Origin: Bacteroidota bacterium
GTDB lineage: Bacteria; Bacteroidota; Bacteroidia; CAILMK01; JAAYUY01
Assembly: GCA_016776505.1 (NCBI GenBank)
Contig: JADHTG010000008.1
Coordinates: forward strand, 1-64,000
Length of the DNA stretch: 64,000 bases
Direction of reading: 5' to 3'
A program made the position numbers and the translations under genes. Under the pieces are notes generated by a model. It ran no database searches and was not told where the DNA came from. It worked only from the letters and a program-made list of their open reading frames with translations. Below are positions 14,598 to 59,790 of this stretch, in pieces; the stretch's first letter is position 1, and every line of letters begins with the position of its first letter.

Positions 14598-14598
14598 A

Positions 14599-15961: not shown

Positions 15962-16002
15962 TGACAATTTCTTTTGATTTGATTAAAATTGAGAATGATT
16001 CT

Positions 16003-38961: not shown

Positions 38962-41900
38962 TTAATAACTTGGCATCATAATCGAATAACCAAGTCCTTT
39001 ACTGGATCGGGTGTAAATAATGACCGAACCACTGGCACCGGGTCGCAGCACATCCTGGGGACCGTTTAATTCCCTCAGTTCAACATCCAGTTCCGTATAC
39101 CCATTTGCCAGTCCCAGGGCACTCAAACCAATGGGTGCTTCAGCTAAACTGATCACTTTCAGTACTGGTGTGGGCAGGTCTATATTTCCATTGTTTAAAA
39201 AATCTATACGCATGGTCAGTATAGAATTTGGCCGGCTGTTAGCTGGTTTCACTACATTCACCTGGAGGTCTGCCGGGAGTCCGGTATTGACTTTGAATCC
39301 ATTATAAAGTGAAGTGGTATCGCTGGTTGTTTTTTCAGCAATCACTGTGTAGTAGCCGGAATCAGCCTCTGATAAATTGAAAGTTGCAAAAACCCTGGTC
39401 GGATCCACGTAAATCACCGTATCTGCCACAATGGTGCTACTTCCTTTATTCAGCTTTACTGTCATGCTGCTGTCGAATTTGGAACCATTGACCAGCAAGG
39501 TCACATTTCCGGTATTACCGCCCTGGCTGGCTACCACAGATCGGATCTCAAAATGCAGGATTTCAGCATACAGGCTTATTTGTTGGTATGCCCCGGCAGA
39601 GGTATTTCCATAGATCAATATATAATAGGTGCTGTCATACAAAGAAGGTACGATGATCTCCTGGTTTCCTTTAAATGCTTCTGAATAGGAGTAATCGTAG
39701 ACAATGCGTGTCGGGATTTCCATATAGCGCAGGTATAATTCATTGGCCCCATTCACGGAATCTCCTTTCAGGGTCAGCAACATGGTTTCACCTAATAAGG
39801 TATCTATGCTCTCAATCTTGTAATACAGGTCTTCATTGTCATTCAATGTATCATAAGTCAGCACGTAAAAGGGTAGATTTAATACAGTTACCTGCATGCT
39901 GTCTGCTGAAATTTTCTGGTTGTTGGTATCATTTGCTTCATTGATATAATCAAGTATATCAGTTCGGACGATAATATGATAATAGCCTATGGCCAATCCG
40001 GAAGCAAAATCATTCATATTTTGGGTATATTCACTGTTGGGTGCCAGGTTCAGACTGTATTGTTTCGTACCAAATAATTTATCATTCACATCCCATTCCG
40101 TATCATTTGATATATAAACAGCATCCCGTACATAACCTGTGGCAGGATTTACACCAATATTTTTCACCTTCCATTGAACAGTAATTGATTCTCCAGCAAT
40201 AACAGTGGAAGGGAAGCTAAGGTCAGAAACGATAAGATCGGAGGGAGGAGCATCGCTTATAAAAATTTGTCCGGAGCTGGTGTTGTTGTTTTCTCCATTG
40301 TGCTCATATTCATTGTTGTCGGCATCGGTTTTCATCATGACAATCTTATTTCCACTACTGTTTCCTGGTAGGAACAGCTGCATGGAATGACTGTAACTTT
40401 CGTTTACAGCCATGTTCCCTGACTTGGTATAAGTACCAAGATAAACATCCGAGTTGTCGATTGTAAGATCAGTGGACAGGTAGAATTTTTCCCGAACTGA
40501 GCCAAAAGTTGTTGGGCCTACTCCTGTATTCTTTACCGTCCAGTTTACTGTAATGGGTTGTCCTGCAGTTCCGGTAGTTGGGGCAGAAAAGGCTGTGATT
40601 GTGAGGTCTGCTGACAGTGTCAGTGCAATGTAAATTGACTGCATCACATTGTTCGCGTTGACTCTCGATCGGTAATTGTTGGCAAAATTATCATCATTGT
40701 TGGCATCATTCTCATCGGTTACAACCAATAAATAAAATGTACCGGAGATCCCATTAGGCAAAGTAATTGTTTTGGAATTGGAATAGGATACTCCTGTCTG
40801 TAAAGCAGATGTGCGGTTTTCACTGTATATTTTTGTATCCGTGGATTTGCTCCAGACAGAATCGGTGGACAGGTAGATGGCATCCATGTAGGACCCGGCA
40901 AGGGTTTTTGCCTGCCCGATATTCTTTATGGTATAGCTCACATTTATTTGCTTACCTGAAGAAGATGAATCTGGTGAGCTGACCGACATGACTTTCAGAT
41001 CAACCGGAGGATACCCATTTATGTAAAAAGAACCTCTTGACACATTGTTGTAGTTGTCAATATGCTCATAGATCTTATCTTCTTTATCTGTGAACACATA
41101 GATGTAATATGTAGCTGCCGACAGACTGGTTGCTAATCCCAAAGTCGTAGTAATGTTATAAGTTCCATTTGGAGCAAGGGAAGTAGCATGGATCACGTTT
41201 TTCAAATAGGTCGCAGTACTCAGATTGAATACGGAATCCTTTGAGAGGTACACATAATCTTTCCATGATGACCCATTGGCATCAGAAGTACCGGTATTTT
41301 TAACAGTAAAGTTTAATAAAGCTGTTCCCCCGGCAGTTCCGGAATCCGGTAACGAAATGCTTGTGACTTCAAGGTCTGGCCAGGGTGAAAGTTTTATATA
41401 AATCGATGTATCTGATTTTCGCAGGTTGTTATTTTCAGCATTTTCTTTAATCTGTCCATTTCCATCTGTGCGTATATATATATAATGAGTACCTGAAATA
41501 CCATCAGGCAAAGTGACAGTTTTTGAAGATGCTGTAGCAGTCCAGGCATTTACATTGCCGGATTTAGATAGTGTTCCAAGCAAAGTGACTGAATCTGCGT
41601 GATAGACATTATAGCTGGATAGATAAATCTTATCGCTCCAGCTTTGACTGATCAAATTCCCGGGTCCCAGATTTCTATCCTTCCATAGTACGAGCATTGG
41701 TTTTCCTGAACTTCCTGTATCCGGATTACTAATAGATACTGGTCTTAAGTCAGGAAGTTTGATATATACTGGATCTGCTGTAGAAACATTATTGTTTTCA
41801 TAGTTGAATTCAAAAACATCATTTCTATAGTCTGTTTGAACAAAGAAATAGTATTGCCCGGAAAATGTTTTGGGTATGGTAACTGTTTTGTACAAAGTAT

Positions 41901-44900
41901 CAGTTGAACCCGGATCGAGAACAGAATTATGATAGTTTGTCCCCAGAGAAGTGGCTGTTGAACTGTTAAAAGTGCTGGTAGAACTGATGAAGATCCTGTC
42001 ATACCAACTATGATCCGGAGAATTTCCACCCTGATTTTTGATGGCAAAACCAAGACTGATAGTTTGATTTGAATGGACCGAGTCGGGGCCCATTACACTG
42101 CTGACAACCAGGTCAGGTGGAGGGGTCAGTTTTACCGAAACAGAATCACTTCGCTTGACATTGTTGTTTTCAAGTGCATGTTCATACTCATGATTATATA
42201 TGTCTGTTTGCACATAGAAATAATATCGCCCATAAATGGCATCAGGAATATTTACTGACTGGCTTGTTGTATATGAACTATCAATATACAGAGCCCCGCT
42301 ATGGTACTTTCGTCCCAGGTATACTGCTGATGCATTTAATGTTGTATCAGTTGACATATACAAGGCATCATACCAGCTATTGGTTGTCGTGTTTCCGCTT
42401 CCATCATTCTTTACAGTCCACATGATATTCATGGATGTGCCTGAAAATACATTGTTTGGTGTAACAATGGATGAAACAATCAGGTCGGGAGGAGGAGTTA
42501 ACTGAACAGTCATAGCTGATGAATTTACTCCTGTATTGTTGTTCTCATCTGATTCCAGCAAATAGTTGTATTTATCCGTGAGTACAAAAACATAATAGGA
42601 ACCTGATATACCTTGCGGAAGATTAATGGATTGGGTCTGGGAATAACTTTGTCCTACACCCAATGAACTGAAATTACTAAATCCGCCCACATATTGGTCG
42701 ACAGAAGCATCAAATAAATTATCATCTGATAGGTACAATAAATCATACCAGCTGGCTGATTGTGTGGATCCACTTCCATTGTTTTTTATTTGCCAGTTTA
42801 CATTGATTGATGTGCCTGAAAATGAAGTGGAGGGTAAGGTGACACTGTTAACAATCAGGTCAGGCAAGCTTCTTAATGTGAATTTCTGAATGGGTCCTCC
42901 GGCTGAGCAATAGGCATTTTTGGCGTGAATTCTCCATTTGTAGGTCACTCCATAGTTCAGGCTGCCAGTAAACAGGTAGGATATTTGAGTAAGATTAGCT
43001 GCTTTGGGAGTAATGGGTTGTGTTAAACTGTCAGCCCAGATATACAAATCATAATTGGTTGCGCCACTGGCAACTGACCATGAAAATGAAATGGGCAATG
43101 ACAAATTGGTGGCCAGGTCTGCCGGAACCATGTTAGATACAAGGGATGGAGCCTGGTAGTTGTTTAAAGTGACATGTAGGGTGTCATTTGTATTCAGGGA
43201 ATCAGCTGAAAGGGATGAATAAATAGTGATATTGAAAGCTCCGTAAGCAGACAAGTCAGCAGTGGTGTTGAATGTGTAATCGTAACTGTTTCCACGGGCA
43301 ATCACCACACTGCCAATATTTTCTGTTACTGCAGATCCTCCATTTATGATATAGGAAACATTAAATCCAGTTTGTGAAAGTCCTCCAAAATTTTGAATTC
43401 TTACTTTTATCGGGGTGGATGAGCTTAGACCACAGGCTGAAACAGGTGAGACCAGGTCGGACACTCCTACATCATTTGAAACGTATGTAAATTCATCAGC
43501 GCCAATATCCGGTTTTGTGGAACTCCTGTATTCCCCGTCAATATCTATGGTAATACCGCTAATAGGCATAGCTGAACTGTCGAGTTGAACCTGGGAAGTG
43601 TGCAAATCAGTAACGGAATAAAAGAGCGGATCCAGGGATTTGGAATGCTGATCGAAGCCTGAATTACTGGTCCATGCTGATAAGCTGCTCCTATTGCCAT
43701 TCCAATAAGCCATATTGCTGCCGCTGCTGTGAATATCATTGTAATCACAGGCACTTAAAGAACCTGTATTGTATACGTATATGGCATAACCTCCGCCTGA
43801 ATTTTCAAATACATTGTTATACACATTTATGCTGGATCCGTAATAGGCATGCAAAGCCTTCCCGTTTGTCACGTGTGAACCAGTGATATGGATGCTGTTG
43901 AAATGAATATCCAGGTAATCCACATAGTAATAATAAATACCCACCGATGTAGAAACTCCACCAACATGAATGAAGTTGTTGGCAATAAGAGCCCTGTTTG
44001 AGCTTGTTCCATCACTGCTATTCAGGTAAATGGCTGTTCCTCCGTTAGCCAGATCAAATTGGTTGGCAGTGATCGCATAGGAATTTTGACAACTGGTCAG
44101 GTAACAGCCAATGGCATAAATATTCCCATCATTTAGGGTAATCTGATTTCCCCGGATGACAGGATCAGAAAGGTAGTTTAACTGCATGGCACAGTAATAC
44201 TGCCCCTGAAAAATATTGTTTTCAACAAGCAGTTCTACAGAGTTGTTCCCATTGAATAAAAGACCATAATATCCATTCCTGATTATGTTTTGACTGAGAG
44301 TCAGGTAGTTCTGATTCGAATTGTCTGCGTAAATGACACTGTGGTTGGTTGTGCTTGATGAGGTGTTATAGCCTTCCAGAATACAATTTTCAAATGAGCA
44401 GTAATTAGCAGCCCCATTTAAATAGACTGCAATACCATAATATGAATGGGTATTTTGTATCGACAGTTGTTCGAAGCCCACATAATCCGCACCATTCAGA
44501 TGTACCACATAATTATTTGAGGAAGTTCCATTGTAGGTTATTTTAACAAGCAAACTATCTTCTGATTCCGATCTGAAAAGGATGGTATTGGAAGCTGAAC
44601 TCCCGTTTACCTCCCTGATGCGGAATTGTTCCGTATACACTCCATCCCTTACATCAAATACAACAGCTCCAACAATTCCTCCAAGATTCAGGTTGGTCAC
44701 AGCTTCAGTAAAACTGGCAAAATCAGGACTTGTTCCTCCAATGGTATAGGTGCCGGCAAGCGCAGCATAGATTTTGTAAACGATACTGCTGTCATTGTCA
44801 TGCAAGGAGTCAGCCTGATTATTGGGATTAATGGAGAATGCTTTGATCGTGTAATTTGTATTGATATTGAAAAGATAGTTCCCAATGGTGACCGTATCTA

Positions 44901-47900
44901 TCCTGCCAGGCAATAAGTTTCCAGTCCAGTTATAAGGAGTCTGGCTGTTTCCGGCAACTGACCATTTGATTGTGGCAGACTGGAGTGTGTCGTAACCGAA
45001 GTTTTTAAGAAGTACCCGGACCTGTTGTGTATCTGAAGCAAAAGGAGCTTCCGGACTGACAATATCTGTAATACCCGCATCTGCAGCATAGGGTATTTCG
45101 AATTCATCTGCTCCAATATCGGGTTTGGTCGGATGACGGCTTTCTCCATCAATATCCGTATTGATACCACTAATGGCCATACCCGATTCATTCAGGTTAA
45201 TTTCCCGGACATGAAGATCCGAAGGTGTTAGATACAAAGGATCAACTGAGAGGGAATGTGCATCCTGTGAAGTTGCAGATTTCCAGGCAGACAGATTGCT
45301 TTGATTTGCATTCCAGTAGGCTAGTGGGATTCCGGATGAATAGATGTTGTTATAGTCAGATGCAGTAAATCCTGAACCGCTTCCGTAAATGGCATATTTG
45401 CCTGCATTATTGACTATATTATTGTTTCTCAGTTGAATGGAGCTTGAACTTTGCATGTACATTCCGTAATTGCTGCTGCCACTTCCACTGATATTGATAT
45501 TATTGAATAAAATATCCCAATAACTGCTGTAATAGAGATAAATTCCATAACTATTGCTGGCGCTTCCACAATGAATAAAATTGTTTGAAATTTCAGAACG
45601 GTCTGATGTAGGAGTGCTGTAGGCGTAAATTCCATAACCTCCAGGCTGGCTGATTTTATTCTTCTGGAATTTTACCTTGTAGCAGCTATACAGGTATGCC
45701 CCATAATAATTACTGTATAAAGAAGAAGATGTCAATTGATTGGAAATAAATTGGGGAGCATCCTGGTAAGTCAGGTACATGCCCATATAATATTGATTTC
45801 GGATGGTATTTCCGATGAGCTTTGTTCCTGATTCGTAATTGGAGGAGGATCCTGTCATGTAAAATCCATAACTCCCGTATTGGATAAGATTATTCGTGAA
45901 TACATTAGAAACATCCCGGCCGGAAGAGCTGTAAATGATTGCATTGTAATTTGTGGTGGAGTTTGAGATAACCCCATGAAACACACAATTTTCAAAATGA
46001 TTGTAATCTGCCCCATTAATTAAGGATAGTATTCTCATATAATTTGATGCTGCTGTTGTGAGAGTAATCTTTCTGAAGCTAATATAATCAGCGCCATCTA
46101 ATTCCAATACCTGTGTGTAAGTTCCACTGTTATATGTTAAGATGACTTTTGAACTATCACCGGACTCAGACTGGAAAATAACAGGTCGTGATGCTGATGC
46201 ACCCGGGTATTGTTTTATTTTTAGCTGTTGAATATAGGTTCCATTTCTAACGTTGAAAATAACCGTGTCAACGACTCCACCCACATTGAGCAAACTCACT
46301 GCATGGGCAAAAGAGGAGAAATTCGGATAACCTCCTCCAATGGTATAAGTTCCTCCCAATCCGGCATATAGATTCTGAACCTCTGAACTATCATTATTAT
46401 TTAATGAGTCAGCCACTCCATTTGGATTGGTGGTGAACGAAACAATATCGTAAGCAATTCCGAGCAGGAATTTGTATTTCCCCAGGCTTACCGTGTCATT
46501 TTCTGCAGTGGGTAATCCACCTGTCCAGGAATAAGGTGTTTGTGTCACTCCATTCACTTTCCAGTTGATGGTAACAGATTTCAAACTGTCAGATCCAAAA
46601 TTACTAAGCACCACTTTTACCATTTGAGAATCTGCAGCAAAAGGTATTTTCGGGGCAATGATATCAGCTACACCTGCATCATCAGTCTGGGGAGGATCAA
46701 ATTCATCCGCTCCGATATCCGGGTTAACCACATCGCGTGTTTCTCCATCAATATCAGTCGTGATACCGCTAATGGGAATGGCCTTTTTGTTCAATGTGAC
46801 CTCTTCTACATGCAAGTCCGTGGATGAAATGAACAAAGGATCGATTGAAATGGAATGGGCATCCAGGGAGGTAGCTGCTTTTAAGGCTGTTAAATTTGAA
46901 TAGCTTGCATTCCAGTATCCGAGAGTTGCCCCAGATGAATACAAATCATTATAATCACAACTGCTAATCGTGTTGGTACCGCTATAAACTGTAAAACTAT
47001 AACCTCCTCCAGTATTTGCAAATATATTGTTCTTGATATTGTGTAAATTTCCATAATACAAATAGAAAGGACTACTGTTCGAGTAAGTATTACTCATATT
47101 TACAGAATTGTAATAGATATTGGCATAGTCGCAATAATAGAGATATAAACCTGTAGAAGTTGAGTTGTATGTTCCATCAACAGAGATAAAATTGTTTGAA
47201 ATCAATAAAGGACTTGAAGAATTACCGTAGCAATATTGAAGGTAAACACTATATGATGGATTGGGGGAATGGATTATATTATTGCTGATTTCACAACCAT
47301 TATAAGTATATATGCTATGAATTGCATATTTAGAATTGTTTCCGTTACGTAAAGTAATTGTATTTCCGCTTATTACAGGATATTCATGATAGTAAGAGTA
47401 AAGAGCAAAATAGGATTGATTATCGAAAAAGTTATTCAATAACTTGAAGCCTGCTTGTCTATAAGATGTATTAGTTCCATATGAATATATCCCAAAACTT
47501 CCGTACTTAAAATGATTTTGATTGAATATGAGATTATCATCATTGTTTGTGTTGTCGGATATTAAACGATAATTTGACGATGTGGATGAAGTATTTATTC
47601 CTTCTATAACATTGGATGCAAATCTAAGGTTATCACAATCATTATTTATAGAAATCACATAGCCATAACCAGTTGTGGAAGTATTTTTCAAAGTCATATC
47701 CCTGAAAGTTACCCCGTCAGCACCATTAAAATAGACCACATAATTGCCAGATGAAGTCCCGGGGTATTGTAGTGTAACGTCTGTACTGTCACCACTTTCT
47801 GACCTGAATACAACAGTATTTGCTGTTGTTGAACCAATTATTGGATTGAGTACAAATTGTTCTGTATAGCTTGCTGACCTGACATCAAACCAGGCAGAAT

Positions 47901-50900
47901 CGATTACACCACCCCGGCTAAGGGCCAAAGCAGCTGCCGTAAAGCTGGAGTAATCGGGACTGCTCCCACCCAATGTATACAATCCGGAAAGAGCAGGATA
48001 CAGGTTTCCAACGCTGAAAGTATCGTTCGAAGTATTTCCATCAGCCAGGTTGTTGGGCTGGCTGGTCCAGCTTGTAATAGCATATAAGGTGTCTTTTTTG
48101 AATAAATAATTTCCAATAACAACATAGGTTGTATCTCCTGATAATAAACTTCCACTCCACGAAAATGGAGTTTGAGTAATATTATTTACTGTCCATTTAA
48201 TACTTGCGGATTTTAGTGTGTCAACTCCATAATTTCTGAGTCTGACTACAATTTGCTGTGTATCGGCAAGGAATGGAATAGCCGGATTTAAAATGGCCAA
48301 TATACCTGCATCATTTGATGGTGGACTGAATTCATCGGCACCCATATCCGGTGTAGAACTATGGCGTGATTCCCCGTCAATATCTATTGAAACTTCTGAA
48401 AGAGCTTGACCGGCATTGTTTAAGTAAAACTCCTTCACATGAAGGTCGGTTGAGGTATAATAAAGTGGATCGACTGATAGGGAATTGTCTCCAAAAGGAC
48501 TTGCTGATCTCCAGGCTGCTAAATCTGAACGATTGCCGTTATAATAACATAGATAAGTTCCTGTGGTGTATAAATCATTGTAGTTGCACGAAGAGAATGT
48601 ATATGTACTGCCCATAAATATGGAATATCCACCTCCGGCATTGCAAATGATATTATTTATCATGTTGCAATTTCCGCCATAAGCGTTGTAAACTCCATAA
48701 CTGCTTGTGTATGTATTTGTAATATTAATATTGTTATGATATATATCCTGGTAAGTAGAGCCGTAAAAATAAATACCATAACAACCTGATGTTCCTCCTA
48801 TCTGGATGAAGTTATTGGCAAATAATCCCCTGTAGGAAGCTGTTCCATTGGAGTAGTAGTCCCTAAATCCAAAACCTCCGTTTTGAATGTATATCTGATT
48901 GCTTTCTATTTTTTTTGCATTATGACAGTAGTATGTATAAATACCATAATAACCAGTGTAGGTGCGATTGGTTTGAATCAGGTTTGATTTGATCTGGATG
49001 GCATCCTGATAAAGAGTATAAATACCCATGTAATATTGGTTACTAAACACATTGTTTTCAATAATTGTCCCATTTTCAAGGCTACTTGAATTTATTCCAT
49101 ACATGTAAATTCCAAATGCTCCATTGCTGAACAGATTATTTCTGAAAACATTATTATTATCAAGAGAACCATTTGAATAAACAAGAGCATGATATGAGGA
49201 AGTGGTGTTGGAAGCAGTGCCTGTAAATATATTGCCTTCAAATAAAATATTTTCAGCACCATTATGTATATAAACAGCTCTCCCGTAGGAATTGTTTAAA
49301 GCTTTGATTTCGATTTGTTTGAATGTTATATAATCTGCACCATTCAAATAAATAATCCAGTTGTTGCTGTAAGCTGAATTGTAACTAAGAGTTACCTTAG
49401 TGCTATCGGCACTGGCCGATCTAAAGGTAATCGTATGGGTTGCCGAGGCTCCGGTGATCTGGTTAATGGTAATTTGTTCATTGTAGGTACTGTCTCTTGC
49501 AATAAATATTACCGCTCCGGCCACTCCATTGGCATTCAGTGAATCCACGGCCTCTCCAAAATCATAGAATGAATCTGTCGGATAAGCTCCAATTGTATAA
49601 GTGCCACTTAGCGGATTTCCTGCTGTAACTGTTTGCAATAATGTGTCATTCGATTTGTTTCCATCAATGGATGCATTCGGATTTTTGGTCCATGCCTTAA
49701 TCGTACTGTTGCCCCAGGGGAAATTATAATTGCCCAGCACCACATGCTGTGCTGTATCACCTGTTACCAACATTCCTGTCCAACTCACCGGACTTTGATT
49801 TACACCATTTACCTGCCAGTCAATCGTAACACTCAACAGCGTATCGGTGGCAAAGTTTTTTAAAGTGACTTGAACAGCCTGGCTTCCATATTTAAAAGGA
49901 ACAGTAGGTGAATTCAGTGCTATTATTCCTGCATCATCATCAGGAGGAGTGAATTCATCAGCGCCTATATCCGGTTTTGTACTGTTGCGGGATTCTCCAT
50001 CGAAATCATCTGTAACTTGCGAAACTGGTGCAGCTGCTTCATCCAGATTTAAACTAAAAGTGTGCAGATCGGTCGCATTAAAGTATTCAGGATCCTCGGA
50101 AATACTGTTTGTATCTGACCCGATATTGGATTTCCATGCACCCAGATCTGTGATATATATATTATAGTAAGAATAAAAACCCAGGTAGGTACCGTTAGAA
50201 TAAAGATTGTTAAAATCACTGTAAAAAGTTTGATTGCTTGTTGAATAATAGGTCCAGTATGCATAGCCTCCTGCCTGGTTGGAGAAACTGTTATTTTTAA
50301 TATTCGCGTAGTAATTGCGGTAATTGTAGAAAGCATAAGTATTGCTGTTATTACCTGTGATATTAATACTGTTATGATAAATATGGGAATAGTTCGCATA
50401 ATAGCACATAAGACCATAGGTCGTGTTGCTGGGATTTGAACTGATAAAATTATTGGCAATGATGGTGGGTGAACTTGATATATCCCCGTTATACACATAA
50501 ATTCCCCTGCCACCTATAAAGTTGGAAATATTGTTTTTCAGTATATGCAGATCATAATCACAATAGTAAGCATAGATTCCATAGAAGTTGCTATAGGAAG
50601 GATTGGCAGTAATAATGTTCTCTTCTATGCTTAAGTATTGTTCATAAACAGCATAAATTCCCATATAGTATGGATTTTCAAACCAGTTTTTCCTGATCAG
50701 GTTGTGGTTTTCATAATTGGTCGATGTGGGGCTGTAGAGGTAAATTCCAAATGAGCCATTTTTAAAATGGTTTTGGACAATTTCATTGTAGTTATCGGCA
50801 AAGGAATTATTCGAATAAACCAGGGCCATGTAATCGGATGTAAAGTTGCCGGATAATCCTTCCAGTACATTGTTGTAAAACTTGTTGTAATTAGCCTTGT

Positions 50901-53900
50901 TTGTTAATTCCACGATGCGGCCATAAGAACTACTTGTATTCTTCAGGGTTATGTTTTTGAAGGTCACATAATCTGCTCCATTAAGCTGAACCAGGTAATT
51001 TGTTGTGGAAGCAGGTGCATAACTCAGGATCACATCAGTGCTGTCTCCGCTAGCTGACATGAATGTTATAGTGTTTGTTGAAGATGCTCCCAGTATTTCA
51101 TTGATGCTGATTTGCTCATAATAGGTTCCGGATGTTACTTGAAAGACTATCGGTCCACAAATTCCAAAGGTATGCAAACTGTCAACAGCACTCTGGAATG
51201 AGGGAAAATCTGCTCCACTTCCTCCAATAGTAAATGTATCGCAGAGATGGGTAGCATAAACCGTCGTTTCGAAGGTGTCATTATCAAGATAGCCGTCAGT
51301 GGTGGAATTTGGATTTTTGGACCAGGCTCTAAGTGTAATATTTCCAGGACTGAAATTGTGGCTGCCTAAACTGATATTTTGTGCAGTGTCTCCTGCTACC
51401 AGGGAACCAGACCAACTAATACCACTTTGACCAACACCGTTTATACTCCAGTCGATCCCGGCACTGAAAAGGGTGTCTGTTCCATGATTTTTAAGGGTTA
51501 CTTTGACTGTATTTGACCCGGAGTGGAAAATATTTCCCGGTGCATCGAAAGCAATAATTCCTGCATCATTGGCTGGAGGAATAAATTCATCAGCCCCAAT
51601 ATCCGGGCTGGTGGCATCACGACTCTCCCCATCAATGTCAGTTGTCACTTCAGAACGTGGTGTCGCTTTTCCGTTCAGGTTCAGGTTCCGCATATGCAGG
51701 TCGGAATTGGATGTAAATTGTGGATCTATAGATAAAGAGTTTGAATCAAAGCCGCTGTAACTGGTCCATGCATTCAGGTCAGAACGGTTACCATTGTAAT
51801 ATGCCAGGTAAGATCCGCTTGTATAGAGATCATTGTAATTGCAATTACTCAGACCTCCATAGGTATAGATAGTGTAACCTCCAGCTTGATTGCAGAAAAT
51901 ATTATTTAAAACAGAAGTGTTTCCAGAATAGTTGTAATCATAATAAAACAAATATCCATTTGGGTCAGTACCAGTCAGATTAACACTGTTGTAAAACACA
52001 TTTACGTAGTCCCCGTAAAGATATATCCCATAACTATAATTGTTAGCACAATTTAATCGAACAAAATTATTGGCAATCAATCCTCGTTTACTTGCCTGAC
52101 ATTGTGCATAATACACATAGATCCCATAATCACCAGTTACTGTTGGTGCATCAATTTTATTCCCACTAAGCTGGAAGTCATCCTGAACGTAATAAAGTTC
52201 GATTCCATAAAAAGAAGAATAGGTGGAATTTGTAGTAATGGTATTGTTTTCAATGATGACCCCATTTTGATAATAGACATACATCCCTATATAATAGGGA
52301 TTCGTGAATGTATTGCTTCTGAATTTATTTCCCTTTGCATAGTTATTATCTCCCCAATAAATCCCATAACTGCCGTTCATCAAATGATTATTGTATATGT
52401 CATTGTATTCATTCGTATTGCTGGAACTGGAGTATATCAATGCCCGATAGGAAGAAGAGCTGGAATAGACGGGATTTTCAATGTAGTTATTGTATATTTT
52501 ATTATAATTGGCACTATTTGCAAATTCAATGACACGGCCATAATAATAATAAGTACTCTTTAAAGTCATATTTTGAAGGGTCACATAGTCAGCACCATCC
52601 AGTTTAACCACATAATTATAGGAAGAAGAGCTGGGGTAATAGTATAAAATTACATCCGTACTATCTCCACTGGCTGATTGGAAAGTAATGGTGTTTGTTG
52701 CTGAGGCCCCATTAATCTCATGAATAACCAATTGCTCATTGTAGGAACCGCTTGAAACCAGGAAAACAACAGGACCACAAATTCCATAATATTCCAGGGA
52801 ATCGATAGCACTTGTAAATGTTGGAAAATCAGCTCCAACACCACCAATTGTGAATGTGTCGCAGAGGTTGGATGCATAAACTGTAGTTTCCAGGGTGTCA
52901 TTGGAATTGAACCCATCTGTAGCTGAATTTGGATTTTTGGTCCATGCTTTAATTGTGTGTTGTCCAATTCCAAATGTTTTTGTTCCTAAAAGAATATTAT
53001 GAACAGTATCTGACGCAGGCAATGTGCCTGTCCAGTTATAAGTGCTTTGAGCCACTCCATTAAGTTTCCAGTCAATGGAAACGGAAGTAATAGTATCGAC
53101 ACCAAAATTCTTGATTCCTACTTCAACTGTTTGAGATCCACTATGGAAGGTAGTCTGTGGAGAATCGAGGACAAAAACACCCGCATCTACACTGGGCTGG
53201 TCAAATTCATCAGCACCAATATCCGGATTCAAGGTATCCCGTATATCTCCATCAATGTCGGTTGTCACTTCGCTTAGTGGCTTGGCAACTCCATTCAGCA
53301 AGGAATTATAGGTGTGTAAGTTCTTATAAGACCAAAAATAGGGATTTGTAGATAGCGAATTAGTATCTCTTCCAGTAGAAGTCTGCCAGGATGATAAATC
53401 ATTTGAATTGGAATTATAATAACCCAGGTTTGATCCGGTAGAATACAGATCATTGTAATTGGAATTGCTTGGAAGATTGTAACCAAAATAAGTTGAATAA
53501 CCTCCCGCTTGATTACTAAAGATATTATTTAAAAAATTAATTCCCGAATAATAGCCATAATAATAAAGAGCACGGCTACTGCTTCCGGAACCTGTTATGT
53601 TCACGCTATTGTGATATGTATTGATATTTTCAGGATAATAAAGATAGATTCCATAGGTGGAGCTGGTCGTGTTCAGTGAGACGAAATTATTTGCTATCAA
53701 ACCAGGAGTACTTGATTGAGAGTAGCTACGGTACATATAGATACCCACTCCACTTGAAAGATTTGAATCATATACCTGGTTCCCTGTAATAATGATAGAG
53801 TAATCGCAATAATGAGTGTAAATGCCATAAAAGTAGCTTAATGTGGAGTTTGTTGAAACAATGTTATTGGTTATTTTTATATAATCAGAATATAAAACCC

Positions 53901-56900
53901 TCAATCCCATATAGTATTGATCGGTAAAAACATTGCCATGGATTAATCCATAATAATTGTAATAGAAATACATCCCATAACTACCATTTTTAAAATGGTT
54001 GTTTGAAAGTTCATTGTAATAATAGCCATAACTCGAGTTAGCATAAATCAGTGCATAATTTGTAGAGGTATTTGTGGTGTTTATCCCCTGAATAATATTG
54101 TTGTTGAATGTATTATAACTTGCTCCATTTGTATAATACAGCACATAGCCATAGTAGGTCCCTGTATTCTTAATGGTCATTTTACTAAAGTTCACATACT
54201 GTGCACCATTCAACTGAATGACATAATTATTGGAAGAGCCCGGGGCATACTGAAGAGTCACCAGTGAGCTGTCTGCGTTTTGAGATGTAAATGTAATGGT
54301 GTTTGTTGCCGAGGCTCCGCTTATCTGCCCAATTGATATCTGCTCTGTATAGGTTCCGTTTTTAACCAAAAATACTACAGGACCACATATTCCATAGGTG
54401 TTTAAGGAATCAATTGCACTATTGAAAGATGGAAAATCAGCTCCCGAACTACCAATAGTGAATGTATCACACAGGTTAGTAACTTTCAATGTTGTTGAAA
54501 AAGTATCATTGGCATTATTTCCATCGGTTCCTGAATTTGGATTTTTTGTCCATGCTTTAAATGCATGAGTTCCCTGTACAAAACTAAACGTACCAATCTG
54601 AATATTAAAAGCTGTATCAGATGGTAACAGAGTACCTGACCAACTATACGAGCTTTGTGAGACTCCATTAATCTTCCAGTCTATACCAGCAGTAAATAAC
54701 GTATCTAATCCATAATTGACAATACTGACTTTTACAGGTTTATTTCCAGGAGAAAAAGGACTAACTGGCTCATCTATGGAAAACACGCCTGCATCAATGG
54801 ATGGAGGTGTAAACTCATCGGCTCCAATATCTGGTTTGGTGGTGCTTCGTGTTTCACCATCATAATCAGTGGTGACCTGAGCTACTGCCAGTCCGGCATC
54901 ATTCAGCACGCTATTAAAAGTATGAAGGTCGGTTGAAGAAATAAATGCAGGGGGTACAGATACTGAGTTAGTGTCCCTGCTAATGGCTGATTGCCAATTG
55001 GTCAAATTTGCATAATTATTGTTAAAATAACCTACATAATTTCCTGTTGTATATAAATCATTGTAATCACTATTTTCAGGTGGATTAGAATAGTTTACCG
55101 CATAACCTCCGGCCTCATTACTGAAGATATTGTTTAAAATATTAATTCCAGAATAATATCCATAATAATATATAGCCCGGCTACTGCTTCCACTCCCATA
55201 AATATTCACACTGTTATGATAAGCACTAAGGTATTGAGGATAATAAAGATATATTCCTGTTGCGGTTCCTGTTACATGCCAGGAAATGAAATTATTAGCA
55301 AGCAATCCAACTGCAGATGAATTTCCGTAAGCTCTATTCATATAAATGCCGTAACCACTGCTTACGTTGTAATCTGAAATATAGTTATTGGTAACTTGTA
55401 CTCCATTATGGCAGTAATAACAATAAATACCATAATAACTGCTATATATACTATTCGTGCTTATGGTATTTCCATGGATTATAGGAGCATTATGCCTTGA
55501 CAAGTGCATTCCCCTGTAATATTGATCCTGGAGTACATTGTTAATAATTTGCAATCCGCTGGAAAAGTCATTATTATCAAGGTAAAATGCATAACTACCA
55601 TATTTGAGTAAATTGTTCTGAAAAGTATTGTTGAAGTAGATATAATTATACATTGAATAAACCAGGGCAAAATATGAGGATGTATTGTTAAGCTGTGCAC
55701 CTTCAATCACGCAATTTTCAATGGTGATATTCGAAGAATTTAATGTGAGATAAATTACTCTCCCATAATTTGTGCTGGAATTCTTCAGTGTAACATTCTT
55801 GAATGTGATATAATTTCCTCCACCAAACTGTGCAACATAGTTTGTTGAAGATCCAGATGGACTATAAGTAAGAATAACAGATGTGCTGTCTCCGCTTGCC
55901 GACTGGAAAGTAATGGTGTTCGTAGCCGATGCATTAGGAATTGCCTGAATATTGAGCTGCTCATTATATGTTCCTGAACTTATCAAAAAGACAACAGGAC
56001 CACAAATGCCATATAGAGTTATTGAATCAATGGCATCCTTTATCGTTGAGAAATCTGCACCACTTCCACCAATCGTGAAAGTATCACAATAATTTGTCGC
56101 ATACACAGTTTTAAGGAGAGTGTCGTTGCTGTTATCTGCATCTGTATTTGAATTCGGATACTTTGTCCATGCTTTGATGGTATGTTTTCCTTTACTGAAT
56201 GTATAATTTCCCAGGGAAATATTGGAAGCCGTGTCTGCTGAAGGAAGGGAACCTGTCCAGCTATAGGGAGTCTGACTCACACCATTTACCTGCCAGAGGA
56301 TACTGTCACTTTTTAAGGTGTCATTGCCATAATTAATCATTCCTACTTTAACAGCGACTGTTCCATATTGGAATCCTGTAGAAGGATTATCAAGGCTGTA
56401 AATCCCTGCATCATTAGCAGCCGGAGTAAATTCGTCTGCTCCAATATCCGGATTTGTAGCGTTTCTTGTTTCTCCATCAATATCGACTGAAGTAGGAATT
56501 GGTAGTGCCTTGCCATTCAGGAAAACATTCCCGATATGTAAATCCGTATTGGAAGTAAAACCTGGAAGAATACTAAGCGAATGGGCATCACGTGATGTAG
56601 TGGCTTGCCAGGAAGCTATGCCTGAGAAATTATAATTGTGATAACATAAGTTTGCTCCTGAGGTGTATAGGTCATTGTAATCGCAGACAGTTGGCAGGTC
56701 AGTAACCATATACATTGAATATCCTCCAGCTGCATTACTGAAAATATTATTCCTTGCCCTCACTGTTCCTGTAGTTCCATCATAATATAATGCAGCACTA
56801 TTGCTGCCAGACCCTGTTATATTTACGCTATTATAGTTTAAAAACAAGAAGGAACAATAAGAAACATATATTCCGCGTGAACTGCTATATGTATTGTATG

Positions 56901-58590
56901 AAACAAAATTATTTGCAACAACTGCAATGCGTCCACTTGATCCATTGATGTTATTCAGAAAAATTCCATAACCACCATAATTATTAGAATCGACTATTAT
57001 GTTTGCATTAATGCGCAGATAATTATTCAAACTATAGCATCGGATACCGTAAAAATAGGTGTAGGATGTATTTGTCCAGATCAGGTTATTGTTAATTTTC
57101 AAAGAGTCGATGTAGCGAGAATATATACCGTTGTAATATTGATTTTCAAAGAAATTGTTTGCAATTAGTCCTCCCTGATCATAATCATTTATGTATCCCA
57201 TCCAATAAATACCATATGAACCGTTTGAGAAATAGTTTTGGATAAATGAATTATAGGATTGAGCTAAACTCGCGGAATTAATATAAACCAACCTGTAATT
57301 TGCTGACGTTGATGTGGTGACAGCTGCCAGTATCCTGTTATTTGAAAACGTATTGCTGGTAGAAGCATTTGTCAGGTAAATTACTGTTGTATAAGATGAT
57401 CCGGTTGACTGAAGTGTCATATTCCGGAATGTGACATGATTTGCCCCGTTCAATTGAACAGTATAATTGTCAGATGAGGATGTGGGGCCATACGTTAAGA
57501 CAACACTGCTACTGTCTCCTGTTTTTGATTCAAACGTAATGGTATTGCTGCTTGAAGTTCCATAAATAGCAGGTATAGTTATTTGTTCTGAAAAGGTTCC
57601 GGTGTCCACTTTGAAAACTACTGCACCACTGATACCACAATTTATTAGTTTGCTCACAGCAGCATTAAAACTGGAAAAAGAATCAGAAGCTGATTTTCCA
57701 ATAGTATATGTGCCACTGAGAGGATGACACGCATAGAGTGCAATCTCCATGGTATCATTCAAATTATTGCTGTCGGCTTTGGAGTTGGGGTATTTGGTCC
57801 AGGTTTTAATCAGGTTTACACCAGTTGTAAAATTGTATGATCCAATAGAGACCTGCTGCGATGTATCGAGAAAAGGAAGATTACCACTCCAGCTATACCC
57901 GGTTTGGGAACTTCCATTCACTTTCCAGTCGATACCAGCTGTTTTAAGAGTATCAGAACCTGAATTGAATATCCTGACTTTCACATTGCGGGAACCAGGA
58001 ATCAAAGGAAATGAAGGGGAATCAATAGCAAACATAGCAGCATCATTTGCTAGCGGGGGCAACACAAAAATGGTGTAATCTTCAGTTTCTCCCCATGAAA
58101 AGGTGCCGCAATCAGAAGGAAAGCCTCCTTCCCTCATGACAATACGTAATCTCAAACTATCGTAGTAATCGACATTTACTGAAGAAACCAGAAACCGGAG
58201 TGAAACAGTAGCCGTTTGCGTGGTCTGCCCTATATTTCCAATAAACTCATTGGTATCCTGAAAATCTCCATCATCGTTGTAGTCTATCCAGGCACTGGCA
58301 GACTTAAAATAATTTCCTCCACAACTACCAAGTGTTACATATAATGTATAAAATGAAGCAGCACGAAGTGTGGTTGAAATAGTTGTAAAATCAGAATATG
58401 TTGCACATATTCCGGATGTTCCTTTACTGATGGTGTTCAATGCAACACTGTCGATCTCTGAATCCCCACTGTTCGTTGCGCCTGACGTACAATAAGTTTG
58501 CGCCCTTAACGAAAATGGAAAAATTCCTGCAATTAATAGTAAAAAAATAAAAATAAACGATAAGTAACGAGATATCTTTTGTGATTTCAT
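38962..58590 (-). CDS. Giant beta-helix/CARDB surface protein, about 6542 aa
   Basis: One uninterrupted 19.6-kb frame. From the ATG at 58590 there is a signal peptide (FIFIFLLLIAGIFPFSLRA), then a GEVED domain (about 30-175, SAWIDYNDDGDFQDTNEF and WGETEDYTIFV). Nine modules follow to about 5038, each pairing a CARDB-like domain with a Tyr/Asn/Ser-rich right-handed beta-helix and closing with PDIGADEF. A linking Ig/Fn3-like part (5040-5240), eight CARDB domains (about 5242-6242) and an IPT-like end come last. The protein stops at GLGYSIMMPSY with no T9SS sorting domain. It is probably an exposed adhesin or sheath-like fibre. It is the first gene of the surface operon. Confidence 0.9.
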   Translation of the reverse strand: MKSQKISRYLSFIFIFLLLIAGIFPFSLRAQTYCTSGATNSGDSEIDSVALNTISKGTSGICATYSDFTTISTTLRAASFYTLYVTLGSCGGNYFKSASAWIDYNDDGDFQDTNEFIGNIGQTTQTATVSLRFLVSSVNVDYYDSLRLRIVMREGGFPSDCGTFSWGETEDYTIFVLPPLANDAAMFAIDSPSFPLIPGSRNVKVRIFNSGSDTLKTAGIDWKVNGSSQTGYSWSGNLPFLDTSQQVSIGSYNFTTGVNLIKTWTKYPNSKADSNNLNDTMEIALYACHPLSGTYTIGKSASDSFSSFNAAVSKLINCGISGAVVFKVDTGTFSEQITIPAIYGTSSSNTITFESKTGDSSSVVLTYGPTSSSDNYTVQLNGANHVTFRNMTLQSTGSSYTTVIYLTNASTSNTFSNNRILAAVTTSTSANYRLVYINSASLAQSYNSFIQNYFSNGSYGIYWMGYINDYDQGGLIANNFFENQYYNGIYSRYIDSLKINNNLIWTNTSYTYFYGIRCYSLNNYLRINANIIVDSNNYGGYGIFLNNINGSSGRIAVVANNFVSYNTYSSSRGIYVSYCSFLFLNYNSVNITGSGSNSAALYYDGTTGTVRARNNIFSNAAGGYSMYMVTDLPTVCDYNDLYTSGANLCYHNYNFSGIASWQATTSRDAHSLSILPGFTSNTDLHIGNVFLNGKALPIPTSVDIDGETRNATNPDIGADEFTPAANDAGIYSLDNPSTGFQYGTVAVKVGMINYGNDTLKSDSILWQVNGVSQTPYSWTGSLPSADTASNISLGNYTFSKGKHTIKAWTKYPNSNTDADNSNDTLLKTVYATNYCDTFTIGGSGADFSTIKDAIDSITLYGICGPVVFLISSGTYNEQLNIQAIPNASATNTITFQSASGDSTSVILTYSPSGSSTNYVAQFGGGNYITFKNVTLKNSSTNYGRVIYLTLNSSNITIENCVIEGAQLNNTSSYFALVYSMYNYIYFNNTFQNNLLKYGSYAFYLDNNDFSSGLQIINNVLQDQYYRGMHLSRHNAPIIHGNTISTNSIYSSYYGIYCYYCHNGVQVTNNYISDYNVSSGYGIYMNRAYGNSSAVGLLANNFISWHVTGTATGIYLYYPQYLSAYHNSVNIYGSGSSSRAIYYYGYYSGINILNNIFSNEAGGYAVNYSNPPENSDYNDLYTTGNYVGYFNNNYANLTNWQSAISRDTNSVSVPPAFISSTDLHTFNSVLNDAGLAVAQVTTDYDGETRSTTKPDIGADEFTPPSIDAGVFSIDEPVSPFSPGNKPVKVSIVNYGLDTLFTAGIDWKINGVSQSSYSWSGTLLPSDTAFNIQIGTFSFVQGTHAFKAWTKNPNSGTDGNNANDTFSTTLKVTNLCDTFTIGSSGADFPSFNSAIDSLNTYGICGPVVFLVKNGTYTEQISIGQISGASATNTITFTSQNADSSLVTLQYAPGSSNNYVIQLNGAQYVNFSKMTIKNTGTYYGYVLYYTNGASYNTFNNNIIQGINTTNTSTNYALIYANSSYGYYYNELSNNHFKNGSYGMYFYYNYYGLIHGNVFTDQYYMGLRVLYSDYIKITNNIVSTNSTLSYFYGIYTHYCDYSIIITGNQVYDSNLSSGVGIYMYRSYSQSSTPGLIANNFVSLNTTSSTYGIYLYYPENINTYHNSVNITGSGSSSRALYYYGYYSGINFLNNIFSNQAGGYSTYFGYNLPSNSNYNDLYSTGSNLGYYNSNSNDLSSWQTSTGRDTNSLSTNPYFWSYKNLHTYNSLLNGVAKPLSEVTTDIDGDIRDTLNPDIGADEFDQPSVDAGVFVLDSPQTTFHSGSQTVEVGIKNFGVDTITSVSIDWKLNGVAQSTYNWTGTLPASDTVHNILLGTKTFGIGQHTIKAWTKNPNSATDGFNSNDTLETTVYASNLCDTFTIGGVGADFPTFTSAIDSLEYYGICGPVVFLVSSGSYNEQLVIHEINGASATNTITFQSASGDSTDVILYYYPSSSSYNYVVKLDGADYVTLQNMTLKSTYYYYGRVIEFANSANYNKIYNNYIENPVYSSSSSYRALIYSSSSNTNEYNDIYNNHLMNGSYGIYWGDNNYAKGNKFRSNTFTNPYYIGMYVYYQNGVIIENNTITTNSTYSSFYGIELYYVQDDFQLSGNKIDAPTVTGDYGIYVYYAQCQASKRGLIANNFVRLNCANNYSYGIYLYGDYVNVFYNSVNLTGTDPNGYLFYYDYNYSGNTSVLNNIFCNQAGGYTIYTYGGLSNCNYNDLYTSGSYLAYYNGNRSDLNAWTSYSGFDSNSLSIDPQFTSNSDLHMRNLNLNGKATPRSEVTTDIDGESRDATSPDIGADEFIPPANDAGIIAFDAPGNIFHSGSNTVKVTLKNHGTDTLFSAGIDWSINGVGQSGISWSGSLVAGDTAQNISLGSHNFSPGNITLRAWSKNPNSTTDGYLDNDTFETTVYATHLCDTFTIGGSGADFPSFQSAVDSLHTFGICGPIVFQVTSGTYYEQISINEILGASSTNTITFMSASGDSTDVILSYAPASTTNYLVQLNGADYVTFKNITLKNTSSSYGRIVELTNKANYNKFYNNVLEGLSGNFTSDYMALVYSNNSFADNYNEIVQNHFKNGSFGIYLYSPTSTNYENHNLIRKNWFENPYYMGIYAVYEQYLSIEENIITANPSYSNFYGIYAYYCDYDLHILKNNISNFIGGRGIYVYNGDISSSPTIIANNFISSNPSNTTYGLMCYYANYSHIYHNSINITGNNSNTYAFYNYRNYYANIKNNSFSNQAGGYAYWTYYSTSNQTFYSDFNNLYSNGTYLGFYSYYNIYITDLGAWKSNIGSDTNSISEDPEYFNATDLHTFSLNLDEAAAPVSQVTDDFDGESRNSTKPDIGADEFTPPDDDAGIIALNSPTVPFKYGSQAVQVTLKNFATDTLLSVTIDWQVNGVNQSPVSWTGMLVTGDTAQHVVLGNYNFPWGNSTIKAWTKNPNASIDGNKSNDTLLQTVTAGNPLSGTYTIGAYPTDSFYDFGEAVDSLNANGVAGAVIFIARDSTYNEQITINQITGASATHTITFRSASADSTKVTLSYNSAYSNNWIIYLNGADYITFKQIEIKALNNSYGRAVYIHNGAENILFEGNIFTGTASNTTSSYHALVYSNGSLDNNNVFRNNLFSNGAFGIYMYGINSSSLENGTIIENNVFSNQYYMGIYTLYQDAIQIKSNLIQTNRTYTGYYGIYTYYCHNAKKIESNQIYIQNGGFGFRDYYSNGTASYRGLFANNFIQIGGTSGCYGIYFYGSTYQDIYHNNINITNTYTSSYGVYNAYGGNCNMINNIICNAGGGYSIFMGSTYTFSSCNYNDLYTTGTYLCYYNGNRSDLAAWRSASPFGDNSLSVDPLYYTSTDLHVKEFYLNNAGQALSEVSIDIDGESRHSSTPDMGADEFSPPSNDAGILAILNPAIPFLADTQQIVVRLRNYGVDTLKSASIKWTVNNITQTPFSWSGSLLSGDTTYVVIGNYLFKKDTLYAITSWTSQPNNLADGNTSNDTFSVGNLYPALSGLYTLGGSSPDYSSFTAAALALSRGGVIDSAWFDVRSASYTEQFVLNPIIGSTTANTVVFRSESGDSTDVTLQYPGTSSGNYVVYFNGADGVTFRDMTLKNTSTTGYGYVISINNDCDNLRFASNVIEGINTSSTSSNYRLISDNTNNDDNLIFNQNHFKYGSFGIYSYGTNTSYRQAGFKLLNNFFDNQSYFALYSYYHEYPVISGNTITLRNGNNSKYAIHSIYTYNGCEISNNIIHSPNPSYSVYLQYCYGNSSSPLLISNNFISVDGTYNSTSTGLYLYYCDYANIYYNSVNMSNTYSNSSPFYLYYGNLHNIKNNIFANTGGGYSFTVYSGTNTISSCDYNDLYSSGATLGYWNASYSNLTALKAATSLDAHSISIDPLFISSTDLHVEEVTLNKKAIPISGITTDIDGETRDVVNPDIGADEFDPPQTDDAGVADIIAPKIPFAADSQMVKVVLSNFGSDSLKSVTINWKVNGVTQTPYSWTGGLPTAENDTVSLGKYKFLLGIAYDIVSFTTNPNGVADSLNNNDSSEVQNLYAGLGGTYTIGGGYPNFSSFAHAVSLLNVGGVVDTVIFNVRNGTYIQQLKIKQYPGASASRPVIFQSESGDSSKVILTYNSGTYTQVLELDGADYISFRKITLTTAASNYMRILSLINGADYNHFENCVFHGVISNSTTNYNAIIYSSSGRDVSNVFTNNLIQYGSYGFYMTGSSSNYESGTKLIGNTIRNQYYMGMYLTYQDAPQFISNQLTSSSLYSNYYGAYLYSCYKVKFQKNKISQPGGYGIYAYSTPTSDRSEISNNFIHCGSASNSYGIYLYYSSYWDILFNNINISGSGSSNYGMYMQSSSSIQLRNNNIVNNAGKYAIYGSGSGFTASDYNNIYSSGIPLAYWNANQSNLSAWKSATSQDAHSLSVDPLYLTPSDLHVREINLNESGMAISGINTDIDGESRHPTKPDIGADEFEIPYAADAGITDIVSPEAPFASDTQQVRVLLKNFGYDTLQSATIKWSVAGNSQTPYNWTGNLLPGRIDTVTIGNYLFNINTNYTIKAFSINPNNQADSLHDNDSSIVYKIYAALAGTYTIGGTSPDFASFTEAVTNLNLGGIVGAVVFDVRDGVYTEQFRIREVNGSSASNTILFRSESEDSLLVKITYNGTSSNNYVVHLNGADYVGFEQLSIQNTHSYYGIAVYLNGAANYCSFENCILEGYNTSSSTTNHSVIYADNSNQNYLTLSQNIIRNGYYGLLFNGNNSVELLVENNIFQGQYYCAMQLNYLSDPVIRGNQITLNDGNIYAIGCYLTSCQNSYAITANQFDLANGGTAIYLNSSDGTSSNRALIANNFIHVGGVSTSVGIYYYYVDYLDIHFNSIHITGSHVTNGKALHAYYGSSINVYNNVFENSGGGYAIYVYNTGSLSACDYNDIHSSGSNMAYWNGNRSSLSAWTSNSGFDQHSKSLDPLFYSVTDLHTSQVQLDSSAMPISGITIDIDGEYRSSTKPDIGADEFTYVSNDVGVSDLVSPVSACGLSSSTPIKVRIQNFGGLSQTGFNVSYIINGGSAVTENIGSVVIARGNSYDYTFNTTADLSAYGAFNITIYSSLSADSLNTNDTLHVTLNNYQAPSLVSNMVPADLATNLSLPISFSWSVASGATNYDLYIWADSLTQPITPKAANLTQISYLFTGSLNYGVTYKWRIHAKNAYCSAGGPIQKFTLRSLPDLIVNSVTLPSTSFSGTSINVNWQIKNNGSGSTQSASWYDLLYLSDDNLFDASVDQYVGGFSNFSSLGVGQSYSQTQSINLPQGISGSYYVFVLTDKYNYLLESDENNNTGVNSSAMTVQLTPPPDLIVSSIVTPNNVFSGTSMNIMWTVKNDGSGNTTTNSWYDALYMSTDTTLNASAVYLGRKYHSGALYIDSSYTTSQSVNIPDAIYGRYYFYVQTDIYNHEYEHALENNNVKRSDSVSVKLTPPPDLVVSSVMGPDSVHSNQTISLGFAIKNQGGNSPDHSWYDRIFISSTSTFNSSTATSLGTNYHNSVLDPGSTDTLYKTVTIPKTFSGQYYFFVQTDYRNDVFEFNYENNNVSTADPVYIKLPDLRPVSISNPDTGSSGKPMLVLWKDRNLGPGNLISQSWSDKIYLSSYNVYHADSVTLLGTLSKSGNVNAWTATASSKTVTLPDGISGTHYIYIRTDGNGQIKENAENNNLRKSDTSIYIKLSPWPDLEVTSISLPDSGTAGGTALLNFTVKNTGTSDANGSSWKDYVYLSKDSVFNLSTATYLKNVIHATSLAPNGTYNITTTLGLATSLSAATYYIYVFTDKEDKIYEHIDNYNNVSRGSFYINGYPPVDLKVMSVSSPDSSSSGKQINVSYTIKNIGQAKTLAGSYMDAIYLSTDSVWSKSTDTKIYSENRTSALQTGVSYSNSKTITLPNGISGTFYLLVVTDENDANNDDNFANNYRSRVNANNVMQSIYIALTLSADLTITAFSAPTTGTAGQPITVNWTVKNTGVGPTTFGSVREKFYLSTDLTIDNSDVYLGTYTKSGNMAVNESYSHSMQLFLPGNSSGNKIVMMKTDADNNEYEHNGENNNTSSGQIFISDAPPSDLIVSDLSFPSTVIAGESITVQWKVKNIGVNPATGYVRDAVYISNDTEWDVNDKLFGTKQYSLNLAPNSEYTQNMNDFASGLAIGYYHIIVRTDILDYINEANDTNNQKISADSMQVTVLNLPFYVLTYDTLNDNEDLYYKIESIDTLLGETMLLTLKGDSVNGANELYLRYMEIPTRIVYDYSYSEAFKGNQEIIVPSLYDSTYYILIYGNTSAGAYQQISLYAEILHFEIRSVVASQGGNTGNVTLLVNGSKFDSSMTVKLNKGSSTIVADTVIYVDPTRVFATFNLSEADSGYYTVIAEKTTSDTTSLYNGFKVNTGLPADLQVNVVKPANSRPNSILTMRIDFLNNGNIDLPTPVLKVISLAEAPIGLSALGLANGYTELDVELRELNGPQDVLRPGASGSVIIYTRSSKGLGYSIMMPSY
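39870..42870 (-). repeat. Eight tandem CARDB domains (about 375 bp each)
   Basis: Each unit opens with a variant of PPDLIVSSVxxPxxxxSGxxI and includes WxVKNxGxG, SWYDxIYLSxD, and HxYExNxxNN near its end, the last recalling a calcium-binding Asp/Asn-rich loop. CARDB domains are cell-adhesion related Ig-like folds. Confidence 0.85.
43485..58060 (-). repeat. Nine long tandem modules of about 1.6 kb
   Basis: The module end motif PDIGADEF (once PDMGADEF) recurs with starts near 43490, 45100, 46699, 48328, 49951, 51583, 53203, 54811 and 56429, a spacing of 1599-1632 bases. Within each module the order is NDAGI-type CARDB-like domain, TIGG-type opening, beta-helix with ANNFIS and HNSVNITGSG, then SDYNDLYSTG and VTTDIDGE. 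Modules 2-5 share CDTFTIGGSGADFPSF and ICGPVVF; modules 7-9 share a different opening. Confidence 0.9.
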
Positions 58591-59073: not shown

Positions 59074-59748
59074 TCAGGATTTTAATTTGCCAATAGCATC
59101 GCTTAATTCCTGGTGACTTTTCTTGATCTTAGATTCAAGCGAATACCTGAACAGGTCTATATCCCTGGAAAGCTCTCTTTTAATTGCCTTCCTTATTTCT
59201 TCGGTTTCCGCATGAATTTTAACATCCGATTCCTCAATGCCTTCTTCAATATTATCATCCAGATCATGCAATCTGCGATTTATTCGCGTATTTAAAATGA
59301 TAAAAGCGATCACTAATAATATCAACAGAACAGCGAGCCCCAGAACGCCTAAACTTATGAGCCTGTTTGAACTCTTCATTTCACTTTGTAGCTGAGCAAT
59401 ATCCGCCTTGGTATCTCGCCTGAATTCCGAAATAGAAAAACTGGTCAAAGTGAGAGAATCTGATGTTAAACGGATTTTGATATTGTATTCCTGCAGAATT
59501 TTAATAATGGTGTCAATATTGTTTTTTAACACATACAATGAATCATTTCGTTTCCTCATATTGTTGTTAAGTACTGCTGTAGTAGATTCAACTGCAGTTA
59601 ATTTTTCATCAATTTCCGTCATTTTTTCATTGAATACACTTTTAAGTAGATAAGGTGGTGGCGTTCGTGTTGTTTTTTTCTTCGTTGTTTGGGCAATGCT
59701 TCCCCCTAATATCAAAATTAAACTAATTGTAAAGATTATGTGTTTCAT
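59074..59748 (-). CDS. Coiled-coil membrane protein, 224 aa
   Basis: Signal peptide (MKHIIFTISLILILGGSIAQ), a periplasmic coiled-coil region (about 35-125), one membrane helix (SLGVLGLAVLLILLVIAFII, about 133-152) and a highly charged cytoplasmic coiled coil. Family not recognised. The layout resembles small structural or signalling membrane proteins. The ATG is chosen over a TTG two codons earlier because it starts the signal peptide. Confidence 0.7.
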   Translation of the reverse strand: MKHIIFTISLILILGGSIAQTTKKKTTRTPPPYLLKSVFNEKMTEIDEKLTAVESTTAVLNNNMRKRNDSLYVLKNNIDTIIKILQEYNIKIRLTSDSLTLTSFSISEFRRDTKADIAQLQSEMKSSNRLISLGVLGLAVLLILLVIAFIILNTRINRRLHDLDDNIEEGIEESDVKIHAETEEIRKAIKRELSRDIDLFRYSLESKIKKSHQELSDAIGKLKS

Positions 59749-59790
59749 AGGCAATACTTTATATAATTAATAAAAATAATCGATACAATA

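Follow-up and report, generated by a model that had tools for sequence, protein, structure and literature searches.

Gene organization of the locus

The window, meaning the whole stretch of DNA analyzed (64,000 nucleotides of contig JADHTG010000008.1 from a Bacteroidota bacterium), contains a giant protein gene on the minus strand (38962..58590), whose frame runs from an ATG at 58590 to a stop at 38962 and encodes 6542 aa (~717 kDa) with no internal stops; an alternative TTG start at 58596 would give 6544 aa. The initial annotation had claimed a single 19.6-kb gene for a 6542-aa protein, without naming its strand, and one open frame of this extent was found. The product consists of an N-terminal Sec signal peptide (MKSQKISRYLSFIFIFLLLIAGIFPFSLRAQ, judged by eye from the sequence), a GEVED domain (aa 101–176, 58069..58296, minus strand; Pfam PF20009, 8e-13), nine modules, eight CARDB domains, and a conserved tail of ~300 aa, and it lacks a C-terminal sorting domain (CTD) of the type IX secretion system (T9SS). 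The proposed combination of GEVED, nine modules, and eight CARDB domains was seen in the Pfam scan and the module alignment. The frame had further been called one of the longest to be expected; it is real, but unexceptional in this group, for G001, a genome of the same family, encodes a protein of 9405 aa built with these modules. This protein (G001:C76:3880-32097, minus strand) shows 16 full or partial beta-helix module matches and its own T9SS tail, and ~15 kb separate it from the giant's ortholog on the same contig.

The CARDB array (aa 5246–6240, 39877..42861, minus strand), in the C-terminal part of the giant, matched Pfam PF07705 in eight stretches (1.4e-76) and scored 253.5 bits against a cut-off of 22.7; as the query in the first contig scan, the CARDB part gave no matches. 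The tail (aa 6241–6544, 38962..39876, minus strand) comprises PPC-like, IPT/TIG-like, and terminal Ig domains, and a fold search with it returned generic Ig-domain matches only. Outside Bacteroidota, tail-like CARDB/Ig regions with 26–34% identity were observed on plasmids of cyanobacteria, Rhizobium, and others.

Two genes follow on the same strand, with gaps of 22 bp between the giant and gene B and 19 bp between gene B and gene C. Gene B (37893..38939, minus strand) encodes 348 aa with a signal peptide and weak, below-cut-off similarity to DUF5711; a sequence search found no solved relative, and an ortholog occupies the same place in G001 (23% identity, 1e-33). Gene C (30290..37873, minus strand) encodes 2527 aa with a signal peptide, an M23 peptidase domain (37145..37429, minus strand) in which both HxxxD (aa 150–154) and HxH (aa 237–239) are present, SprB repeats, a DUF7619 region identified by Pfam (34922..35491, minus strand), 13 PKD domains, and a T9SS type A sorting domain identified by a type A tail match (30308..30544, minus strand). 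Gene C is the only protein with DUF7619 in this genome, so that the giant's adjacency to DUF7619 does not merely reflect a widespread domain. G001 contains counterparts of the giant, gene B, and gene C in the same order. Upstream of the giant lies a gene for 226 aa with a predicted coiled coil and membrane segment (59074..59754, minus strand), and a similar-looking coiled-coil gene precedes the G001 ortholog, as judged by eye from the two N-termini. Elsewhere in the window (12158-15967), MraZ-, MraW-, FtsL-, and penicillin-binding-protein-like frames, as read from the sequence, form an ordinary cell-division/cell-wall cluster.

Module architecture and predicted fibre length

Each of the nine modules closes in D[IM]GADEF, and they are spaced at 539, 536, 540, 544, 541, 543, 533, and 537 aa (1599–1632 bp), exactly the spacing given in the initial annotation. 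All lie on the minus strand. Module 1 (56428..58047), a CARDB-like Ig domain followed by a beta-helix and a DIDGExR...DIGADEF motif, was delimited by alignment and a structure model, as were modules 3 (53203..54810) and 4 (51583..53202); modules 2 (54811..56427), 5 (49951..51582), 6 (48328..49950), 7 (46699..48327), 8 (45100..46698), and 9 (43489..45099) were delimited by module alignment. Pairwise identity among them is 37–53% at the protein level and 48–60% at the DNA level, and Beta_helix/NosD Pfam matches were obtained in all three module-bearing pieces of the giant.

We modelled two consecutive modules with AlphaFold, using the window's own eight module pairs as input. The model (pLDDT 78.8) divides each module into an Ig domain of ~110 aa, a right-handed beta-helix of ~340 aa, and a low-confidence end of ~85 aa; with a pTM of 0.48, it does not predict how the domains are oriented. 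The Ig half, which does not reach the Pfam CARDB cut-off, matches the solved CARDB domain 3idu (PF1109) with a TM of 0.68 by target length, and the solved structures nearest to the beta-helix half are the polysaccharide-active enzymes GH87, GH28, and PL6; sequence identity in these fold matches is low (8–17%). In the prediction, each module thus pairs a CARDB-like Ig domain with a right-handed beta-helix, which is the build that the initial annotation had expected of each module. The repeated ligand sites that the initial annotation had also suggested are putative: the closest solved folds act on polysaccharides, but strong conservation in the body of the helix falls largely on Asn, Gly, Tyr, and Phe and on few charged residues. 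Conserved charged positions are concentrated in the Ig half and in the closing DIDGExR...DIGADEF motif; the latter is similar to the choice-of-anchor Q model, with a score below the cut-off. A role for the module as an active polysaccharide enzyme was considered and dropped, as no catalytic set was recognized.

The two-module model gives 11–14 nm per module, to which ~4 nm per Ig domain was added; by this rough estimate the whole giant would measure ~100–200 nm if fully extended. Of the surface fibre several hundred nanometres long that had been proposed, an extracellular modular fibre is retained as the best reading of the sequence, whereas the length was overestimated. This reading is based on the signal peptide, the GEVED domain, the repeated beta-helix and Ig domains, and the fact that the genome encodes SprA (2518.7 bits, cut-off 200), showing that the T9SS is present, and has 133 type A tail matches.

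The genome of the window is a 129-contig draft of 92.8% completeness, and the initial annotation had named assembly-induced miscounting of modules and a frameshift as possible flaws. The frame is uninterrupted, and a repeat search found no long near-identical DNA, the longest repeat families measuring 55–96 nt at 60–79% identity. Because the modules are diverged and the repeats short and imperfect, short-read miscounting or collapse of modules is unlikely, as is recent module duplication. The G001 ortholog has seven modules and the identical C-terminal end point. At least 10 other proteins of ~700–4000 aa in the window's genome also bear the module, which indicates that the lineage holds a large paralogous family of predicted beta-helix surface proteins.

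Sorting signals of the giant and its paralogs

T9SS cargo is defined and annotated by its own CTD. NCBIfam and Pfam scans of the giant found no type A CTD (TIGR04183/PF18962), and the NCBIfam scan found no type B CTD (TIGR04131). The same held for any sorting domain on 12 sister tails (NCBIfam, Pfam), and a CTD model built locally found none on 14 giants that end in the tail. Among module paralogs drawn from the window's genome and three related genomes, with tails judged from the C-terminal sequences, every protein whose C-terminus is complete has a T9SS-like tail there, the giant and its G001 ortholog being the exceptions. The missing sorting signal and the conserved partner operon had both escaped the initial annotation.

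In F. johnsoniae, a CTD-less protein served as the non-secreted negative control for the T9SS (PMC10994853). Since such a control is not secreted, the giant, if it is located outside the cell, would need help or another route.

Split and fused forms across Bacteroidota

Searching the class and the phylum with the tail as the query yielded 30 well-resolved loci. These are the best tail matches rather than a random sample, come mostly from draft genomes in a search covering about half of the GTDB species, and include several giants cut by the ends of the contig or of the region analyzed. For the pattern search, the tail alignment of 12 rows varied too much, and one of 4 rows was used successfully. 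Models of the CTD, DUF7619, and the tail were built locally from sequences in this analysis, with DUF7619 seeds chosen by the pattern DPN[DS]IxGP; Pfam's own DUF7619 model confirmed every partner and fused protein submitted.

Tail and DUF7619 occurred together in all 30 loci examined, either in cis or with DUF7619 no more than three genes downstream. The tail forms the C-terminal end of the protein in 14 loci, with its last residues conserved, and is internal in the 16 others. In all 14 tail-terminal loci, DUF7619 lies in the next one to three co-directional genes, and the CTD is found on the DUF7619 protein in 12 and in the following gene in one; the remaining locus runs off its contig. All 16 internal-tail proteins carry DUF7619 in cis, and 14 of them carry a CTD. 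Fused chains are ordered as tail, optional RHS, DUF7619, and CTD, and the split loci keep this order. In a maximum-likelihood tree of the tail, all 14 split forms lie on one side of one branch (100/99), so that a single change between fused and split forms would suffice; the tree is unrooted and gives that change no direction. Split and fused tail systems coexist within the genomes G012 and G307. We found no published description of the tail-DUF7619 cluster in a literature search confined to papers outside subscription access.

These distributions bear on the possibility that the tail is itself an unrecognized T9SS sorting signal, the giant being exported alone and its neighbours cooperating functionally. 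The last domain of the tail is an Ig-like sandwich, and T9SS CTDs are beta-sandwiches as well (PMC11285876); the extreme C-terminus of the tail is conserved in the 14 loci. However, an ordinary CTD follows the tail in 14 of the 16 proteins that have it internally, where the tail is therefore not a terminal signal, and it matches neither the type A nor the type B model. We therefore consider this explanation improbable, while giving it more weight than the other rivals. A periplasmic location or a non-T9SS route, with operon membership due to other reasons, would agree with the absence of a sorting signal; yet the module paralogs are T9SS-type proteins, the fused forms carry CTDs, and a rod of 100–200 nm is, on general knowledge, too long to fit radially in the periplasm, which makes this alternative still less probable.

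The domains found between tail and DUF7619 vary across loci and include M23, M4 thermolysin, RHS repeats, and a trypsin-like protease, the last called by sequence inspection. The tail is paired with an RHS-type protein in five sister loci, and family f84 has tail, RHS, and DUF7619 within one chain; a 9840-codon frame in G628 (G628:C27:10000-30552 and beyond) elsewhere in the phylum likewise joins the three, but its C-terminal end showed no T9SS tail. Such pairings and the f84 chains would suit an RHS-type polymorphic toxin delivery system with the giant as its delivery arm. The window's cluster, however, has an M23 peptidase and no RHS repeats, and neither a toxin cassette nor an immunity gene was seen in a non-systematic inspection; we regard a toxin system here as quite improbable.

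Artefact offers the least probable account, namely that the CTD was lost to a frameshift or a false stop, or that the modules are miscounted. The assembly is indeed a draft, but the same C-terminal end recurs in 14 independent loci, the partner proteins encoded next have their own signal peptides, and the divergence of the modules (37–53% identity) goes with a lack of long near-identical repeats. Loss of the giant's CTD through a frameshift or premature stop was rejected on the first two grounds.

Proposed two-part surface assembly

Gene fusion and conserved adjacency usually signal protein interaction. The fused forms together with the conserved adjacency lead us to infer an interaction between the tail and DUF7619, and the best reading of the comparative sequences is that a fused surface protein would have become an operon. 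We accordingly propose, with a probability of roughly 0.55, a split assembly at the cell surface in which the giant provides the fibre and gene C is its partner. Some loci speak against this reading, in that one or more genes lie between the giant and the DUF7619 protein (two genes in G011, gene B or RHS elsewhere) and docking may thus be indirect. The intergenic gaps in G276 exceed 370 bp, and the separate CTD gene in G307C119, 152 bp further on, is possibly unrelated.

In the proposed split assembly, the giant would be exported by Sec and its tail would then dock on the DUF7619 region of gene C, whose CTD would, by way of SprA/PorV, either carry the complex across the outer membrane or retain it there. 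The giant might cross the outer membrane together with gene C or take its own route and dock afterwards. The beta-helix/CARDB array would be an adhesive arm that probably binds polysaccharide. The effector would be gene C's M23 domain, which probably cleaves the peptidoglycan of adjacent cells; its place is taken in sister loci by an M4 protease, a trypsin-like protease, or RHS repeats. An isopeptide bond joining the giant to DUF7619 was rejected, since 29 of the 30 DUF7619 copies lack Lys after the DPN motif.

A more tentative step is that the type IX system would export the ~717-kDa CTD-less giant in trans, either carried by or assembled onto a partner that holds the only sorting signal; it is put forward jointly with, and on the same tentative footing as, the idea of a two-part T9SS cargo with interchangeable anchor-side effectors (peptidase, protease, RHS) and a modular adhesive arm opposite. 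Our literature search turned up no example of a subunit without a CTD being carried by a partner that has one. If a sorting signal can work in trans, many large proteins that lack a CTD but are encoded next to CTD genes would have been missed as surface proteins, and a two-part cargo of this natural kind would allow the limits that the SprA channel sets on size and folding to be tested. The fused and split forms found in nature further predict which domains should bind.

Comparison with known systems

The giant resembles T9SS type A cargo, such as the module paralogs described here, in its signal peptide, large modular build, modules, and a host that has SprA. Such cargo has its own C-terminal sorting domain, whereas the giant has none and the domain is found on gene C instead. 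The two halves of its modules share their folds with GH87/GH28/PL6 enzymes and the CARDB domain of PF1109 (3idu), but at 8–17% identity, and unlike in those enzymes no catalytic set has been demonstrated.

Fibrillar adhesins with isopeptide domains, for which DUF7619 has been listed as a predicted isopeptide domain (PMC12617251), have in common with this system a long Ig-domain stalk, DUF7619, and a T9SS tail. In contrast to those adhesins, 29 of the 30 DUF7619 copies here, in fused and split forms alike, lack Lys after DPN[DEQ]. This residue may be the isopeptide Lys of the published survey, and the DUF7619 copies of the tail system may represent a subfamily without the isopeptide bond.

Type B CTD adhesins (TIGR04131), including SprB, are held by PorP/SprF partners (PMC9143113) and, as proposed for the giant, are giant T9SS-linked surface proteins held by a second protein. 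The giant differs in that it has no type B CTD and that its candidate partner is a secreted CTD protein rather than a PorP-like outer-membrane barrel; genes B and C gave no Pfam match to a PorP/SprF-like barrel. The TANFOR polymorphic toxins of Bacteroidetes are proposed T9SS substrates near CTD proteins with SprB/PKD domains, and their toxin parts are sometimes divided over adjacent genes (PMC7073777). NCBIfam and Pfam scans of the giant found no TANFOR domain, and unlike in TANFOR toxins the genes here are tied by fused and split forms and by DUF7619, with no toxin cassette seen. Type B adhesins and TANFOR toxins are the nearest published ideas, although neither is the arrangement found here.
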